From Thermococcus sp. AM4 (GTDB taxonomy: Archaea; Methanobacteriota_B; Thermococci; Thermococcales; Thermococcaceae), in contig NC_016051.1 in assembly GCF_000151205.2 (NCBI RefSeq), positions 682,001-746,000 on the forward strand: a stretch of 64,000 nucleotides of DNA, given 5' to 3'. Positions 12,775-18,474 of this stretch are shown here, piece by piece (the first letter of the stretch is position 1; every line of letters begins with the position of its first letter). The notes below the pieces were generated by a model. That model was given only the letters and a program-made list of their open reading frames with translations. It made no database searches and had not been told where the DNA came from. The position numbers and the translations under genes are program-made.

Positions 12775-13815
12775 TTAGATGACTCCCGTGATTTTAGCGG
12801 CCTTCTCCGCTGCCTCCCACGTGAGGCCCTCCTTCCCGAGGATGGTGTAGCGTTCGGGCCTTATGGTGTGGGCTATCGTGAGGGCCTTGATTATAATCTC
12901 GGGATCGATTCCAAGCTCGTATGCGTTGGTAGGTGCGCCCACCCTCTTTAAGGTTTCCCTAACGCGCTCCCATTTGAGACCGTGAAGGTAGGCCATTATT
13001 ATCGTCCCGACCCCGCACTGCTCCCCGTGGAGGGCCGGCTTTGGAGCGAGCATGTCGAGGGCGTGGCTGAAGAGGTGCTCCGCCCCGCTCGCCGGTCTTG
13101 AAGAACCCGCTATGCTCATCGCAACGCCGCTGCTTATGAGCCCCTTGATGACCTTCCTCACGCTCTCCTCGTTGCCGAGCCGGATTATATCGGCGTTCCT
13201 CATGACCATCTTGGCGCTCATGAGCGAGAGAGATGCCGCGTACTCGCTGTAGTACTCGCCGCGAATTCTATGGGCCAGCTGCCAGTCCTTGACTGCGGTT
13301 AAGTTGCTTATTATGTCCCCGACCCCGGCCGCGAGGTAGCGGTAGGGCGCGGTTTTTATGACCTTAACGTCCGCTATGACCGCTATCGGGGGCCTGGCCT
13401 TCACCGACGTTTTGGCCCCCAAGTCCCTTATTGAGGCGTTGGCGCTCGCTATTCCATCGTGCGAAGCGGTGGTTGGAAAGCTGACGAAAGGAATTCCCAG
13501 GCGGTAGGAGGAGAGCTTTGCGACGTCGATTATGCTGCCCCCTCCAACCGCGATCATCCAGTCGGCGGGGGTTTCCCGGGCTATTCTCATAATCCTTTCC
13601 ACTTCATCCATCGTGGCCCCCTTGACGACGACACCAGAAACTTCAAACTCCCTGGAAAGGTTCTCCTCAACCTCCTCTCCCGCTATCTTTTTCGTTCTGG
13701 GGCCGTAGAGAACGAGAGCCCTCTCACCGAGCTTAAGCCTCTTCGCAACGCTCACGGTTTCTCCAGCCAAACTCTCGCCCAAGAGCACTTCCCGCGGAAG
13801 CTCCATCAGGTGCAC
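12775..13815 (-). CDS. egsA: sn-Glycerol-1-phosphate dehydrogenase
   Basis: A 346-residue NAD(P)H-dependent enzyme that reduces dihydroxyacetone phosphate to sn-glycerol-1-phosphate, the backbone of archaeal ether lipids. Seen in the sequence are the nucleotide-binding AVGGGSIIDVAK, the FVSFPTTASHDGIAS block, and metal-site regions DIISN, AEHLFSHALD and LHGEQCGVG. GTG 13815 is chosen because GAGGTG lies six bases before it and the product then begins with HLMELPREV, as in Pyrococcus; GTG 13824 is the alternative. It has its own promoter (TTTTTAAGTCC). Confidence 0.95.
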   Translation of the reverse strand: MHLMELPREVLLGESLAGETVSVAKRLKLGERALVLYGPRTKKIAGEEVEENLSREFEVSGVVVKGATMDEVERIMRIARETPADWMIAVGGGSIIDVAKLSSYRLGIPFVSFPTTASHDGIASANASIRDLGAKTSVKARPPIAVIADVKVIKTAPYRYLAAGVGDIISNLTAVKDWQLAHRIRGEYYSEYAASLSLMSAKMVMRNADIIRLGNEESVRKVIKGLISSGVAMSIAGSSRPASGAEHLFSHALDMLAPKPALHGEQCGVGTIIMAYLHGLKWERVRETLKRVGAPTNAYELGIDPEIIIKALTIAHTIRPERYTILGKEGLTWEAAEKAAKITGVI

Positions 13816-13979
13816 TTTCTTCACCTCATTTAACTAAGGTACCTGGACTTAAAAATTGATTGGAGGTTAAAGTATCCCGTCCGGTGGGCACTTGAGGTGT
13901 TAGTGGCGCGAGGATATACGAAATCCATAAATATCATGACTTCCCACTTCTGATAGTTTTATACTCACAGGTGATGCTC

Positions 13980-16900
13980 ATGGCGTACTGGGCTAAAACT
14001 TACGGGCCAGGCGAAGCTAAGGCTGTGGCTGTTGATAGGGACGGGGATATTATTGTTGTTGGGGAAAGGGAAGGAGACGGCTTCGTGGCTCGGCTTGACC
14101 GGGATGGAAATGTGAAGTGGTTTAAGACGTATGGAGGGGACAAAGACGATGTATTCAATGATGTGAAGATTGCTCCCAACGGAGATATAATCGTGGCGGG
14201 ATACACTGAGAGTTTTGGAGTTGGGGGCAGGAGCGTTTGGGTTCTTAGACTTGATGAGGAGGGTAATGTGAAATGGCAGAAGACATATGGGGGGAAATAC
14301 AGTGATGGGGCTTCTTCAGTTGCCATATCATCAAATGGGGATATTATTGTCGCTGGTTATACTTGGAGCTTCGGCGCTGGTTGGAGTGATTTTTGGGTTC
14401 TCCGTTTGGATGAGAATGGGAATCTCAAATGGCAAAAAACATATGGTGGAGAGTGGGATGAGAGAGCTGAGACAGTTGCTATTGCCCCAAATGGTGACAT
14501 AATCGTAGCTGGTTATACTGAGAGTTTTGGGACTGAAGGTAGAAACGTTTGGGTTCTTCGTTTGGACGAGAATGGAAATGTCAAATGGCAAAGAATATAC
14601 AAAGGAAACTATTATAGTGAAGCTTTAATGGTTTCCATAGCTAAAAATAACGATACAACTGTTGCGGGTTATACAAAAGGCCTCAACACTAGCAGTCATG
14701 ACGTCTGGGTTCTCAAGCTTGATGAGAATGGAAATATCAAGTGGCAGAAAACATATAGCGGAAACAAGGATGATATAGCCAACGCAGTTACCATTGCAGA
14801 AAACGGTGACGTGATAGTGGCTGGAGGAACTAAAAGCTTTGGCATGGGCTCTTATGACGTTTGGGTTCTTCGTTTGGACGAGAATGGAAATGTCAAATGG
14901 CAAAAAACATATGGTGGAAGCAGTAGTGATCATGCTAACGCTGTTGCTATCGCTCCAAATGGGGACATTATTATCTCAGGTTGCACCAAAAGCTTTGGCA
15001 TGGGTTCTTATGAGGTTTGGGTTCTTAGACTTCCCTCAAACGGAGAATTGCCTAACTGTGACTTCTGCATGGACTCAAACGCCCAAATTATCGAAACTAA
15101 TGCTAAAGTTCTGGAAACTACATGCGAAGTTCTAAGTGGGGTTAAAAAGGGCCTTCTTGGTAAGCTTATTAAAAAAGAATTGGTAAGTAAATCATCAAGT
15201 GCGAGGATCAATGAAATCTCAGTAAAACCACAGATTCAGTATTATCTCGACCTAGAGCTCAAACATAGCCTTCAAGACTTTCTCACACTCTCAATCCCCC
15301 AGCTCATAGAAGGCACTGATTCAATCATTAAGTTCTCGGTCAAAAACGACTTTACGAACTCCCTCAAACTCACCCTCGACCTCTCGGAAAACGACTTCCT
15401 TGACTTTGAAACGACTTCTCTCGAATTTCCAGAGTTAAAGAAGGATCAAGAAGTTTCCAAGAGCCTTACCGTAACCCCCAAACATGCGGGAAACTTTGAC
15501 TTTAGAATCAAGGTTAGAGCAATAGTAGACGGCATCGAGCTTGAAACTGAAAAGGTAATTCCAATAAAAATCAAAGAGCACCCAGCCAAGAGAAGACTCA
15601 AAGAATGCGTTGAACTCTCAACCTCGGATCTAATAGAAGAGATCCCCTCCACCATAGAGGCACAGGTGGACAACACCGTTGCCGGCACCCTCAAACTCAT
15701 CCTTGACTTCTCCGATAATGACTTCTTCGATTTTGAAACCACCACCTTGGAGTTCCCAGAGCTGAAAAAGGGCCAAAAGATCTCGAAGAGCCTCGCGGTA
15801 ACGCCGAAATACGCTGGCAGTTTTGACTTCCGCGTCAAAATTAAAGCTATAGCAGATGGCATCGAGTTTGAGACTGAAAAGGTCATTCCGGTTGAAGTCG
15901 CCGAAAAGACGACAACACCAGCTCATCCCACGCCCCGGACTCCAGCAACACCAGTCACCCCAGTTACTCCAACGCTCCAGGCAGTAACTCCAACTCCAGC
16001 ACTCCAGCCGGCAACACCGATAACTCCCTCCCCCTCCTATCCGGTCCTCAGATCTTTCCCGGCCGAACTGTTGAGCATTTATGAGCCGTTGGAAGAGCTC
16101 GGCAGAGGAGGATTTGCCAGAGTCTTTAAGGCCAAACGCAAGAAGGACGGTGAGATCGTTGCCGTGAAAGTTCCCCTCAGCTTAGACCCGGTGACGGGCA
16201 AATCCTTCCTCCGCGAGATAGAGAACTGGGTTCACCTAAAACATCCAAATATTGTGAAAGTTTACGACTACAACATTCTGCCGGTTCCGTTCTTCGAGAT
16301 GGAGTACTGCGAGAGCTCGCTGGAAAGACTTCCAGTGCCGATAAACCCAAAAGAAGCCGCTTTGCTCGTCTTCAACATCGCCGAGGGCCTCAAGTATGCA
16401 CACTCAAAGGGCATCATCCACCGCGACCTAAAGCCGAGCAACATTCTCCTGAAGCAGGGAATACCCAAAATAAGCGACTGGGGGCTAAGCAAGGTTCTCG
16501 GTAAGAGCGGGACGACGACAACGAGCTTTACAGCCCTTTACGCGGCCCCTGAACAGTTCAGCAGGTCGAGGTTTGGGCCGACGGACGAGAGAACCGACAT
16601 CTGGCAGCTGGGAGTAATCTTCTACCAGCTCGTTACCGGAAAGTTGCCCTTTGACAGTGAGGATCCCTTCGAGCTTATGTTCCTGATAATGAACGAGGAA
16701 CCCCTCAAGCCGAGCGAACTGAACCCGGAAGCCAAGGAGGTCGAGCCGATAATCCTCAGGATGATAGCAAAGCGCAAGGAGGACAGGTACGAGAGCGCAG
16801 TAGAGCTCCAGAGTGACCTTGCCAGCTACCTCGGAATAGAGTTCAGGCGCGAGCTGAAAAGGAGCAGAACGATGGGGGATAAGCGTTTGGTGGTATACTA

Positions 16901-17123
16901 CCTCGGGAACCTCCTGATAATGAGCGTCAAGATGGGGAACCTGAGCGGTGCCTACAAGTACGCGAGCGATTTTGCGATGCTGACGAGTGGAGAGCTTAAG
17001 GAGGAGTTTGAATCTCTGGCGAGCCAGTTCAAGCTCCGCCTTGAGGAGGGACTTGAGATTCCGGTCGAGCTGATTGAGAAAACAGACGTGCTCGTGCACA
17101 GGGCGATGGTTCTGGCTCGCTGA
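13980..17123 (+). CDS. Seven-repeat beta-propeller / duplicated beta domain / Ser-Thr protein kinase fusion
   Basis: A 1047-residue protein. Residues 1 to about 350 hold seven ~52-residue repeats, each with a DxNGNVKWxKTYGG core, then AIAPNGDIIVAGYT, then VWVLRLD, as in a seven-bladed propeller. Two nearly identical ~100-residue beta domains follow (about 425-640, each with DFETT, LEFPELKK and AGxFDFR), then a Thr/Pro linker (about 643-690). A complete kinase domain comes last: GRGGFARV loop at 708, Lys730 in VAVKV, HRDLKPSN with Asp816, DWG at 833 and APEQ, plus a helical tail. No signal peptide or membrane helix is seen, so the sensor and kinase should both be in the cytoplasm. The propeller DNA is AT-richer than the kinase DNA. 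ATG 13980 follows GGTGATGCTC. Confidence 0.9.
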   Translation: MAYWAKTYGPGEAKAVAVDRDGDIIVVGEREGDGFVARLDRDGNVKWFKTYGGDKDDVFNDVKIAPNGDIIVAGYTESFGVGGRSVWVLRLDEEGNVKWQKTYGGKYSDGASSVAISSNGDIIVAGYTWSFGAGWSDFWVLRLDENGNLKWQKTYGGEWDERAETVAIAPNGDIIVAGYTESFGTEGRNVWVLRLDENGNVKWQRIYKGNYYSEALMVSIAKNNDTTVAGYTKGLNTSSHDVWVLKLDENGNIKWQKTYSGNKDDIANAVTIAENGDVIVAGGTKSFGMGSYDVWVLRLDENGNVKWQKTYGGSSSDHANAVAIAPNGDIIISGCTKSFGMGSYEVWVLRLPSNGELPNCDFCMDSNAQIIETNAKVLETTCEVLSGVKKGLLGKLIKKELVSKSSSARINEISVKPQIQYYLDLELKHSLQDFLTLSIPQLIEGTDSIIKFSVKNDFTNSLKLTLDLSENDFLDFETTSLEFPELKKDQEVSKSLTVTPKHAGNFDFRIKVRAIVDGIELETEKVIPIKIKEHPAKRRLKECVELSTSDLIEEIPSTIEAQVDNTVAGTLKLILDFSDNDFFDFETTTLEFPELKKGQKISKSLAVTPKYAGSFDFRVKIKAIADGIEFETEKVIPVEVAEKTTTPAHPTPRTPATPVTPVTPTLQAVTPTPALQPATPITPSPSYPVLRSFPAELLSIYEPLEELGRGGFARVFKAKRKKDGEIVAVKVPLSLDPVTGKSFLREIENWVHLKHPNIVKVYDYNILPVPFFEMEYCESSLERLPVPINPKEAALLVFNIAEGLKYAHSKGIIHRDLKPSNILLKQGIPKISDWGLSKVLGKSGTTTTSFTALYAAPEQFSRSRFGPTDERTDIWQLGVIFYQLVTGKLPFDSEDPFELMFLIMNEEPLKPSELNPEAKEVEPIILRMIAKRKEDRYESAVELQSDLASYLGIEFRRELKRSRTMGDKRLVVYYLGNLLIMSVKMGNLSGAYKYASDFAMLTSGELKEEFESLASQFKLRLEEGLEIPVELIEKTDVLVHRAMVLAR
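14545..14904 (+). repeat. Near-identical DNA repeats inside the propeller region
   Basis: The 48 bases at 14545-14592 recur without change at 14857-14904, an offset of 312 bases or exactly two 52-residue blades. Other blades share shorter runs of the same sequence. Such DNA-level identity points to recent duplication or gene conversion of blades. Confidence 0.8.
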
Positions 17124-17217: not shown

Positions 17218-18474
17218 ATGCTTGAGAAAGACCTTGTCCTTCAGTATCTGGTGGATTTTCAGGAGAAGGAGCTCCCCGACTTCATCGAGAGGGAACTGAG
17301 GGTTCCCTTAAAAAAGGACTACGTGATAGCCGTAATCGGACCGAGGAGGAGCGGAAAAACCTTCTACTTCTATCAGCTGATGAGAGACCTCCCGAGGGAG
17401 GAGACCCTGTACCTCAACTTCGAGCATCCGATATTCGAGGGTTTTGAGACAAAGGACATCGTTGAAGTCCTAAAGCTCCACCGCGAGGCCTTTGGAGAGC
17501 CAAAATACGTTTTCCTTGACGAGGTTCAGAACGTTCATGGCTGGGAGAGAATGGCCCGCTACCTCAACGATGAGGGGTATCACACCTTTCTCACGGGTTC
17601 CTCCTCAAAGCTCCTCAGCGGGGAGATAGCCACATCTATGAGGGGAAGATCCCTGACGTATACCCTCCTCCCATTCAGCTTTCGGGAGTTCCTGAGGGCT
17701 AAAGGTGTCCATCCCAAGAAACCACTGAGCTCAAAGAAAGAGGCCATGGTTAAATCCATGCTCACGGAGTATCTGAACTGGGGGGGCTTTCCTCAGGTCG
17801 TGCTTGAGACAAACGAGACAGTACGGGAGAAGCTCCTCTCCGAGTACCTTGATATGGTGGTTTACAAGGACATAGTGGAGAGGTACGGTGTCAGAAACCT
17901 CCACGTCATGAAAATGCTCATCCGTTCCCTCATGCGCTCCTTTGCCAAAGAGTTCAGCGTCCATGCGTTCTACAACACTCTAAAGTCTCAGGGGATGAAG
18001 GTGGGCAAGGGGGTTTTGTACGAGTACCTCAGCTACGTGGAGGACTCGATGAGCGTTTTTCTCCTCAAGAAGTTCAGCTATTCACTGAAGGTCTCGGAAC
18101 TGTCAATCCCGAAGGTCTACCCAGTGGATGCAGGCTTCACGAGGATGTTCTCCTTCAGTCCCGACATCGGGAGGCTGATGGAACTGGCCGTGTTCCTCGA
18201 ACTCAAAAGGAAAGGACGGGAGGTTTACTATTACAAGAACCATCGGGAGGTGGATTTCGTCATCGTTGAGAGAGGCATGCCTATAGAGCTGATACAGGTA
18301 ACCTACGCGTTTGACCGGAGCGACATAAAGCCAAGGGAAGTGGAGGGTTTAAAGAAAGCCGGAGAGAAACTGAAAGTCGACAGAAAGCTCGTGATCACGT
18401 GGGACTACTCGGATGAGAAGGAGGGAGTAGAATTCGTCCCCCTGTGGAAGTGGCTCCTGAGAGGAAACCTTTAA
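17218..18474 (+). CDS. AAA-family ATPase with DUF4143 domain
   Basis: A 418-residue protein of a family common in archaea. The N-terminal AAA domain has Walker A GPRRSGKTF (about residue 41) and Walker B YVFLDEVQN (about residue 99), then the arginine-rich ATSMRGRSLTY. The C-terminal half has the DUF4143 pattern, ending in EVDFVIVE and ELIQVTYA, reminiscent of PD-(D/E)XK nucleases. The function of the family is unknown. The start has no ribosome site and sits about 25-30 bases after TATA, so the transcript is probably leaderless. The repeats upstream are specific to this gene in the window. Confidence 0.88.
   Translation: MLEKDLVLQYLVDFQEKELPDFIERELRVPLKKDYVIAVIGPRRSGKTFYFYQLMRDLPREETLYLNFEHPIFEGFETKDIVEVLKLHREAFGEPKYVFLDEVQNVHGWERMARYLNDEGYHTFLTGSSSKLLSGEIATSMRGRSLTYTLLPFSFREFLRAKGVHPKKPLSSKKEAMVKSMLTEYLNWGGFPQVVLETNETVREKLLSEYLDMVVYKDIVERYGVRNLHVMKMLIRSLMRSFAKEFSVHAFYNTLKSQGMKVGKGVLYEYLSYVEDSMSVFLLKKFSYSLKVSELSIPKVYPVDAGFTRMFSFSPDIGRLMELAVFLELKRKGREVYYYKNHREVDFVIVERGMPIELIQVTYAFDRSDIKPREVEGLKKAGEKLKVDRKLVITWDYSDEKEGVEFVPLWKWLLRGNL

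Follow-up and report, generated by a model that had tools for sequence, protein, structure and literature searches.

Why should a complete Ser/Thr protein kinase be tethered to a seven-repeat propeller and carry no membrane segment of its own? The question is raised by one gene in a stretch of 64,000 nucleotides from Thermococcus sp. AM4 (contig NC_016051.1, positions 682,001 to 746,000; the whole stretch is called the window here). Comparison with its relatives shows that this kinase is not a lone oddity. It is a propeller-bearing, membrane-free offshoot of the archaeal kinases associated with the endosomal sorting complex required for transport (ESCRT), which are described in part in the literature (PMC10936438). 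We judge the chances about even that the gene encodes a soluble kinase, a dispersed paralogue of the Thermococcaceae ESCRT-locus Ser/Thr kinases, that is recruited by its propeller and has kept an ESCRT-linked targeting role.

The gene is composed of the following parts; blades were delimited with a repeat hidden Markov model (HMM) and the strands of an AlphaFold2 model.

13968–13979, + strand: Shine-Dalgarno-like AGGTGATG ahead of ATG 13980 (from sequence; function putative)
13980–17123, + strand: whole gene, 1047 amino acids, propeller–Ig–Ig–linker–kinase–C-terminal domain (CTD); ATG start, open reading frame confirmed
13989–14117, + strand: blade 1, residues 4–46, short (43 amino acids)
14118–14273, + strand: blade 2, residues 47–98
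14274–14429, + strand: blade 3, residues 99–150
14430–14585, + strand: blade 4, residues 151–202
14586–14741, + strand: blade 5, residues 203–254, the most diverged of the full-length repeats
14742–14897, + strand: blade 6, residues 255–306
14898–15050, + strand: blade 7, residues 307–357
15057–15140, + strand: post-propeller segment CDFC...SNAQI..TNAKV..T.C (CxxC), residues 360–387 (alignment and AlphaFold2)
15261–15572, + strand: Ig-like domain 1, residues 428–531 (domain comparison)
15573–15905, + strand: Ig-like domain 2, residues 532–642, 60% identical to domain 1
15906–16055, + strand: Thr/Pro-rich linker (from sequence)
16080–16793, + strand: Hanks-type protein kinase domain, residues 701–938 (Pfam PF00069, 6.3e-46; invariant motifs)
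16167, 16425 and 16476, + strand: codons of the kinase-motif residues K730, D816 and D833
16800–17120, + strand: five-helix CTD, residues 941–1047, shared with ESCRT-locus kinases

Kinship with the ESCRT-locus kinases

The ESCRT locus of the window genome, at about 245–286 kb, holds most of its other kinases. It also encodes two Vps4-like ATPases with Vps4_C domains, a membrane PP2C phosphatase, a Snf7-like protein (E 0.004, below cut-off) and a pair of homologous coiled-coil proteins, one of which matches Snf7 at E 0.006. At the corresponding loci of eleven other genomes (L030–L040), a kinase consisting of transmembrane (TM) helix, Ig-like domain, kinase and CTD adjoins Vps4 and in most cases shares 4 nt with it; ESCRT-III-like gene(s) lie on one flank and PP2C on the other. 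These kinases, like one on a plasmid (see below), match those that Makarova et al. 2024 (PMC10936438) describe, along with phosphatases, at the ESCRT loci of the euryarchaeal 'Main' Vps4 clade. The Vps4-adjacent slot of the window genome itself is taken by a propeller–Ig–linker–kinase–CTD protein (L053:2339-5209; Vps4 overlap of 14 nt) that is 64% identical to the window protein, and in genome G114 (L149) a soluble propeller kinase begins 77 nt past the ESCRT-III-like pair. Set side by side, the TM–Ig–kinase–CTD and propeller–Ig–kinase–CTD forms in the Vps4-adjacent slot suggest that the membrane anchor gave way to the propeller; which of the two came first is inferred.

The window protein shares with the published ESCRT-associated Ser/Thr kinases the Ig-like repeats before the kinase, the Hanks-type kinase domain and a small C-terminal helical domain, and its paralogues adjoin Vps4 and ESCRT-III-like genes. 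Its Ig domain is homologous to that of the TM-class ESCRT-locus kinases, and the two beta domains that the preliminary description had called duplicated are this Ig-like pair. The CTD, which that description had overlooked, is conserved and occurs in the window protein as well as in the kinases of the ESCRT loci (32 aligned sequences). AlphaFold2 models it as a five-helix bundle with zero strands (predicted local distance difference test score, pLDDT, 95). Typical ESCRT-associated kinases are membrane-associated through an N-terminal TM segment, whereas the window protein has a cytoplasmic propeller and is encoded outside the ESCRT locus; its paralogue L053 lies in a Vps4/ESCRT-III locus. Lacking both the membrane segment and the location, the window protein is a relative rather than a member of the group in the strict sense.

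Other affiliations were considered for the single domains. The match to the PknB/Stk1 PASTA equivalog reached 193 bits against a cut-off of 450 and was restricted to the kinase domain. Matches to the known anti-phage kinases (Stk2, PglW, MADS6, PD-T4-6) also spanned the kinase region only, with MADS6 and PglW far under their NCBIfam equivalog cut-offs, and on this ground the kinase was not assigned to a defence system. Comparison of the CTD model with the PDB gave no significant match (an eIF3 PCI-MPN chain scored TMq 0.59 but E 1.7), and PCI homology was not recovered by the comparisons made here, which neither confirm nor contradict the published view of this domain as a PCI/winged-helix variant. 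An adaptin-appendage resemblance of the Ig domain was not reproduced, the PDB matches being weak (alpha-2-macroglobulin, 0.014; TRAP-beta, 0.5).

A tree built from 66 kinase domains groups the window kinase with other dispersed soluble kinases in a clade supported at 98/91, apart from the clade of soluble kinases at ESCRT loci (100/100). An alignment of ten soluble family members showed K730, E746, D816 and D833-W834-G835 to be invariant. The earlier observation that every catalytic motif is present (K730, D816 and DWG at 833) thus holds and extends to E746, and we infer from these residues that the kinase is catalytically active. Several predicted Ser/Thr kinases were detected in the T. gammatolerans proteome (PMC2718504).

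Several observations concern the ESCRT loci themselves. The order ESCRT-III-like/kinase/Vps4/PP2C is well conserved in Thermococcaceae, which is in tension with a 2021 review that describes Thermococcales as devoid of ESCRT-III. A 49-kb plasmid of Thermococcus peptonophilus (NZ_CP014751; L145, 3648-11551) carries a seemingly complete ESCRT-type operon with two proteins of arCOG08177/09748-like size, a pair of proteins of about 200 amino acids, a Ser/Thr kinase, a Vps4-like ATPase and PP2C. The ESCRT locus of G000 encodes a protein of 1370 amino acids without signal peptide (L010:4054-8166, - strand), in which a propeller precedes two kinase domains from different kinase clades. In G049, a gene for 3037 amino acids with PQQ-type and DUF5122 propeller matches (L050:7540-16653, - strand) sits in an ESCRT locus between two Vps4-like genes.

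A cytoplasmic propeller in place of the anchor

The repeat HMM finds seven repeats between residues 4 and 357. The preliminary description had given seven repeats of about 52 residues; the count stands and six repeats measure 51–52 amino acids, but the first has only 43. With split HMM hits read as one, 15 of 17 relatives also have seven repeats and the other two (L015, L049) have six, which places the count far above chance. The repeat exceeds the curated cut-offs of DUF5122 (Pfam PF17164, E 8.7e-12; 45.5 against 27 bits) and of the delta-60 repeat (NCBIfam TIGR02608; 93.8 against 76.5 bits), and together with the closed fold this assigns the protein to the DUF5122/delta-60 propellers. An AlphaFold2 model of residues 1–397 built from 15 sequences (predicted TM-score 0.87) has 28 strands in seven sets of four, with pLDDT above 90 for most propeller residues and low confidence past about residue 363. 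Foldseek retrieved CylK structures as the top solved matches (TMq 0.83, root-mean-square deviation 2.3–2.9 Å, E 1e-21 to 1e-23). The structure prediction that the preliminary description had called for therefore supports a closed, seven-bladed propeller.

The C-terminal propeller of CylK (PDB 7ron, 7fh6–7fh8) is the nearest relative of known structure in fold and in sequence (E 4e-24). It is seven-bladed with Ca2+ sites between the blades (PMC8916777), and its D-x-N-G-N-like inter-blade loops recur in the window protein, so that Ca2+ binding by the window propeller is possible. CylK itself is an alkylating enzyme of cyanobacteria that has a Ca2+ beta-roll domain but lacks a kinase. Within the phylum, propeller matches at E 1e-40 were confined to Thermococcaceae; a contig scan for kinase motifs returned mostly bacterial kinases. 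IMG/VR contigs (L143:3896-5257, L144) carry a viral member of this propeller family with 56% identity. It lies just downstream of tape-measure (PhageMin_Tail) and YQBQ-like tail genes and ends in a TNCTVTD heptad tail resembling the post-propeller segment of the window kinase; it is likely a tail-tip protein.

Could the protein instead be a receptor kinase that is exported or lies in the membrane, its signal peptide overlooked because the start was misplaced? Several propeller kinases of the same genomes do have a signal peptide and a TM helix. However, the only in-frame start between the upstream stop and ATG 13980 is GTG 13971, which had been listed as the start earlier and falls within the Shine-Dalgarno-like AGGTGATG; ATG 13980 follows that sequence directly. 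Inspection of the reading frame thus confirmed ATG 13980, the start already chosen in the preliminary description. A hydropathy scan found no TM segment, ahead of the kinase or elsewhere, and no signal peptide in the window protein, in agreement with the membrane helix reported missing at the outset. (A TM call in the relative L013, residues 244–262, falls within the propeller and was disregarded.) We consider the exported form extremely improbable and reject it on the start site, the N-terminal alignment and hydropathy. Since most relatives without a signal peptide begin exactly at M-[SAP]-YWAKTYG, at the same residue as the window protein, and signal peptide and TM segment are lacking, a soluble, cytoplasmic protein is supported. 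The CDFC...T.C segment is kept in most soluble relatives, with low AlphaFold2 confidence.

The order of domains had been thought reversed and unusual. Bacterial propeller kinases of the AfsK or PknD type have the kinase first, often with a TM helix. They too combine a kinase with a propeller for sensing or protein interaction, but their propellers (PQQ, WD or NHL) belong to other families and they lack the Ig repeats and the CTD. An N-terminal propeller with a C-terminal kinase is, however, the standard order in this genome and kinase family, so that the order is not what sets the window protein apart. The window genome also encodes proteins with signal peptide, propeller, PEGA domains, TM helix and kinase (L009:6343-10401, L011:1469-6055), which share the propeller repeat, the number of seven repeats and the propeller-first order with the window protein; they differ in that the propeller is extracellular and is followed by PEGA domains and a TM helix, and the tree puts their kinases in other clades. 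The distinctive group is that of the propeller kinases without signal peptide or TM helix. Two further soluble propeller kinases (L055:7157-9625, L021:1498-3978) have HLD for HRD in the catalytic loop and belong to a different kinase clade, yet carry the same N-terminal propeller. In a Thermococci metagenome-assembled genome (QMUE01000020; L063:4780-8601), a protein with signal peptide, propeller, PEGA, TM helix, Macro domain and kinase is encoded near a Vps4-like gene.

A natural domain swap bears on the role of the propeller. In G022, a gene placed between a separate kinase gene and Vps4 (L045:6088-8925, - strand) encodes the same propeller, Ig domain and Thr/Pro linker, the last a feature that the window protein had been correctly said to contain, followed by the start of a kinase up to the glycine loop. 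Beyond this point come pentapeptide repeats (Pfam 2e-39) and the pore of an Ion_trans_2 channel (Pfam 1e-9). Because the propeller–Ig part is joined here to pentapeptide repeats and a channel instead of a kinase, it is a portable module. Channels of the Ion_trans_2 type normally have a cytoplasmic N-terminus, which further supports a cytoplasmic propeller. At the loci examined, propeller proteins lacking kinases start with apparent signal peptides, the channel fusion of G022 excepted. The swap strengthens the initial proposal of a soluble sensor or scaffold kinase, which is plausible.

The chromosomal site and the neighbouring ATPase

The genes next to the kinase gene are the following.

12775–13824: dehydrogenase-like gene, upstream neighbour of the kinase
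17218–18474, + strand: AAA_14/DUF4143 ATPase, adjacent to the kinase gene; the same pair is at the same site in two other genomes

The AAA_14 ATPase matches the PADLOC candidate defence family PDC-S01 (7e-106). The kinase may have left the ESCRT locus and become an independent, possibly defence-like or mobile, signalling unit together with this ATPase, with no ESCRT role left. G000, G106 and G075 share the pair at this position of the chromosome: the order kinase–AAA_14–DUF63 is the same in G106, and in G075 the C-terminus of the kinase lies beside AAA_14 at a contig end. (A 'Vps4' match near the G106 orthologue is a proteasome-activating-nucleotidase-like ATPase by sequence and was not taken as ESCRT evidence.) G075 has one more kinase gene of this kind, not identical to the first, on a different contig next to ATPase_2. 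The site holds AAA_14 without the kinase in four genomes and neither gene in five relatives examined, among them G049, where the DUF63 neighbour is 96% identical. In the first sample, an AAA_14 or ATPase_2 gene lay no more than 105 nt from four of the five assessable genes of the dispersed clade. The chance of such a neighbour for a random gene is about 4%, which puts four of five at about 1e-5. This neighbourhood was noticed after the fact and involves ATPases of different families, and is suggestive only. The partners are either AAA_14/DUF4143 or ATPase_2/DUF234, and they lie upstream, downstream or divergent, so that there is no fixed operon. Moreover, ATPases of these kinds abound (about 40 or more per genome), PDC-S01 has only the status of a predicted candidate family, and the kinase retains the CTD typical of ESCRT-locus kinases. 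On balance we find a purely ATPase-linked function somewhat unlikely.

Alternatively, the gene might be a lineage-specific kinase duplicate that serves no function of its own and persists for dosage or redundancy. The genome has nine strong kinase-domain matches, presence at the window site is patchy, and the repeat units are 40–75% identical, which suggests ongoing repeat turnover. We nevertheless think this quite unlikely: all catalytic motifs are intact, the syntenic kinase–AAA_14 pair is kept in three species, and kinase plus CTD are 89% identical to those of L147 and L015 in other species while the propellers vary more, which suggests purifying selection.

Proposed targeting and its meaning

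Under the evenly weighted proposal of a dispersed, propeller-recruited paralogue of the ESCRT-locus kinases, the membrane helix of the common ESCRT-locus form would set the Ig-like domain, kinase and CTD at the membrane beside ESCRT-III and Vps4. In the window variant, the cytoplasmic seven-bladed propeller in the helix's place would direct the kinase to its partner, a protein or something else, and the Ig repeats and the Thr/Pro linker would serve as a spacer. Once the propeller is engaged, the kinase may autophosphorylate and also modify substrates in its vicinity, of which ESCRT-associated proteins or those docked via the CTD are the likeliest, and the PP2C phosphatase of the ESCRT locus could reverse this phosphorylation.

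Several points weigh against this proposal. Some 410 kb separate the window gene from the ESCRT locus, and its adjacent genes are not ESCRT genes. By sequence, the p234/p202 pair is only weakly identified as ESCRT-III (Snf7 E 0.006 to 0.06, below cut-off). The CTD model is strandless and without a significant PDB match, so that docking to a winged-helix partner has only the published HHpred claim to support it. Finally, a review cites unpublished work in which disruption of the T. kodakarensis Vps4 homologues left vesicles unaffected (PMC10117752).

A bolder idea, which we regard as a long shot, is that Thermococcaceae possess coat-like cytoplasmic adaptors, composed of propeller, appendage-like Ig repeats and helical CTD, which carry a kinase, or in one case an ion channel, and tag cargo or ESCRT components by phosphorylating them. 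If so, the propeller would have displaced the membrane anchor and made recruitment of the kinase dependent on cargo, and the window copy would be a freed form at work elsewhere in the cell.

The ESCRT systems of Euryarchaeota have for the most part not been characterised. A soluble kinase related by descent and domain content to the Vps4-adjacent kinase offers a concrete way into them. The kinase family comes in matched membrane-anchored and propeller-targeted forms, and deletion or exchange of the anchor in a genetically tractable Thermococcus would reveal the factor that recruits the kinase and show whether membrane remodelling is controlled by phosphorylation. The exchange of kinase for channel indicates that the propeller–Ig part is self-contained, and it should be expressible and usable as bait.

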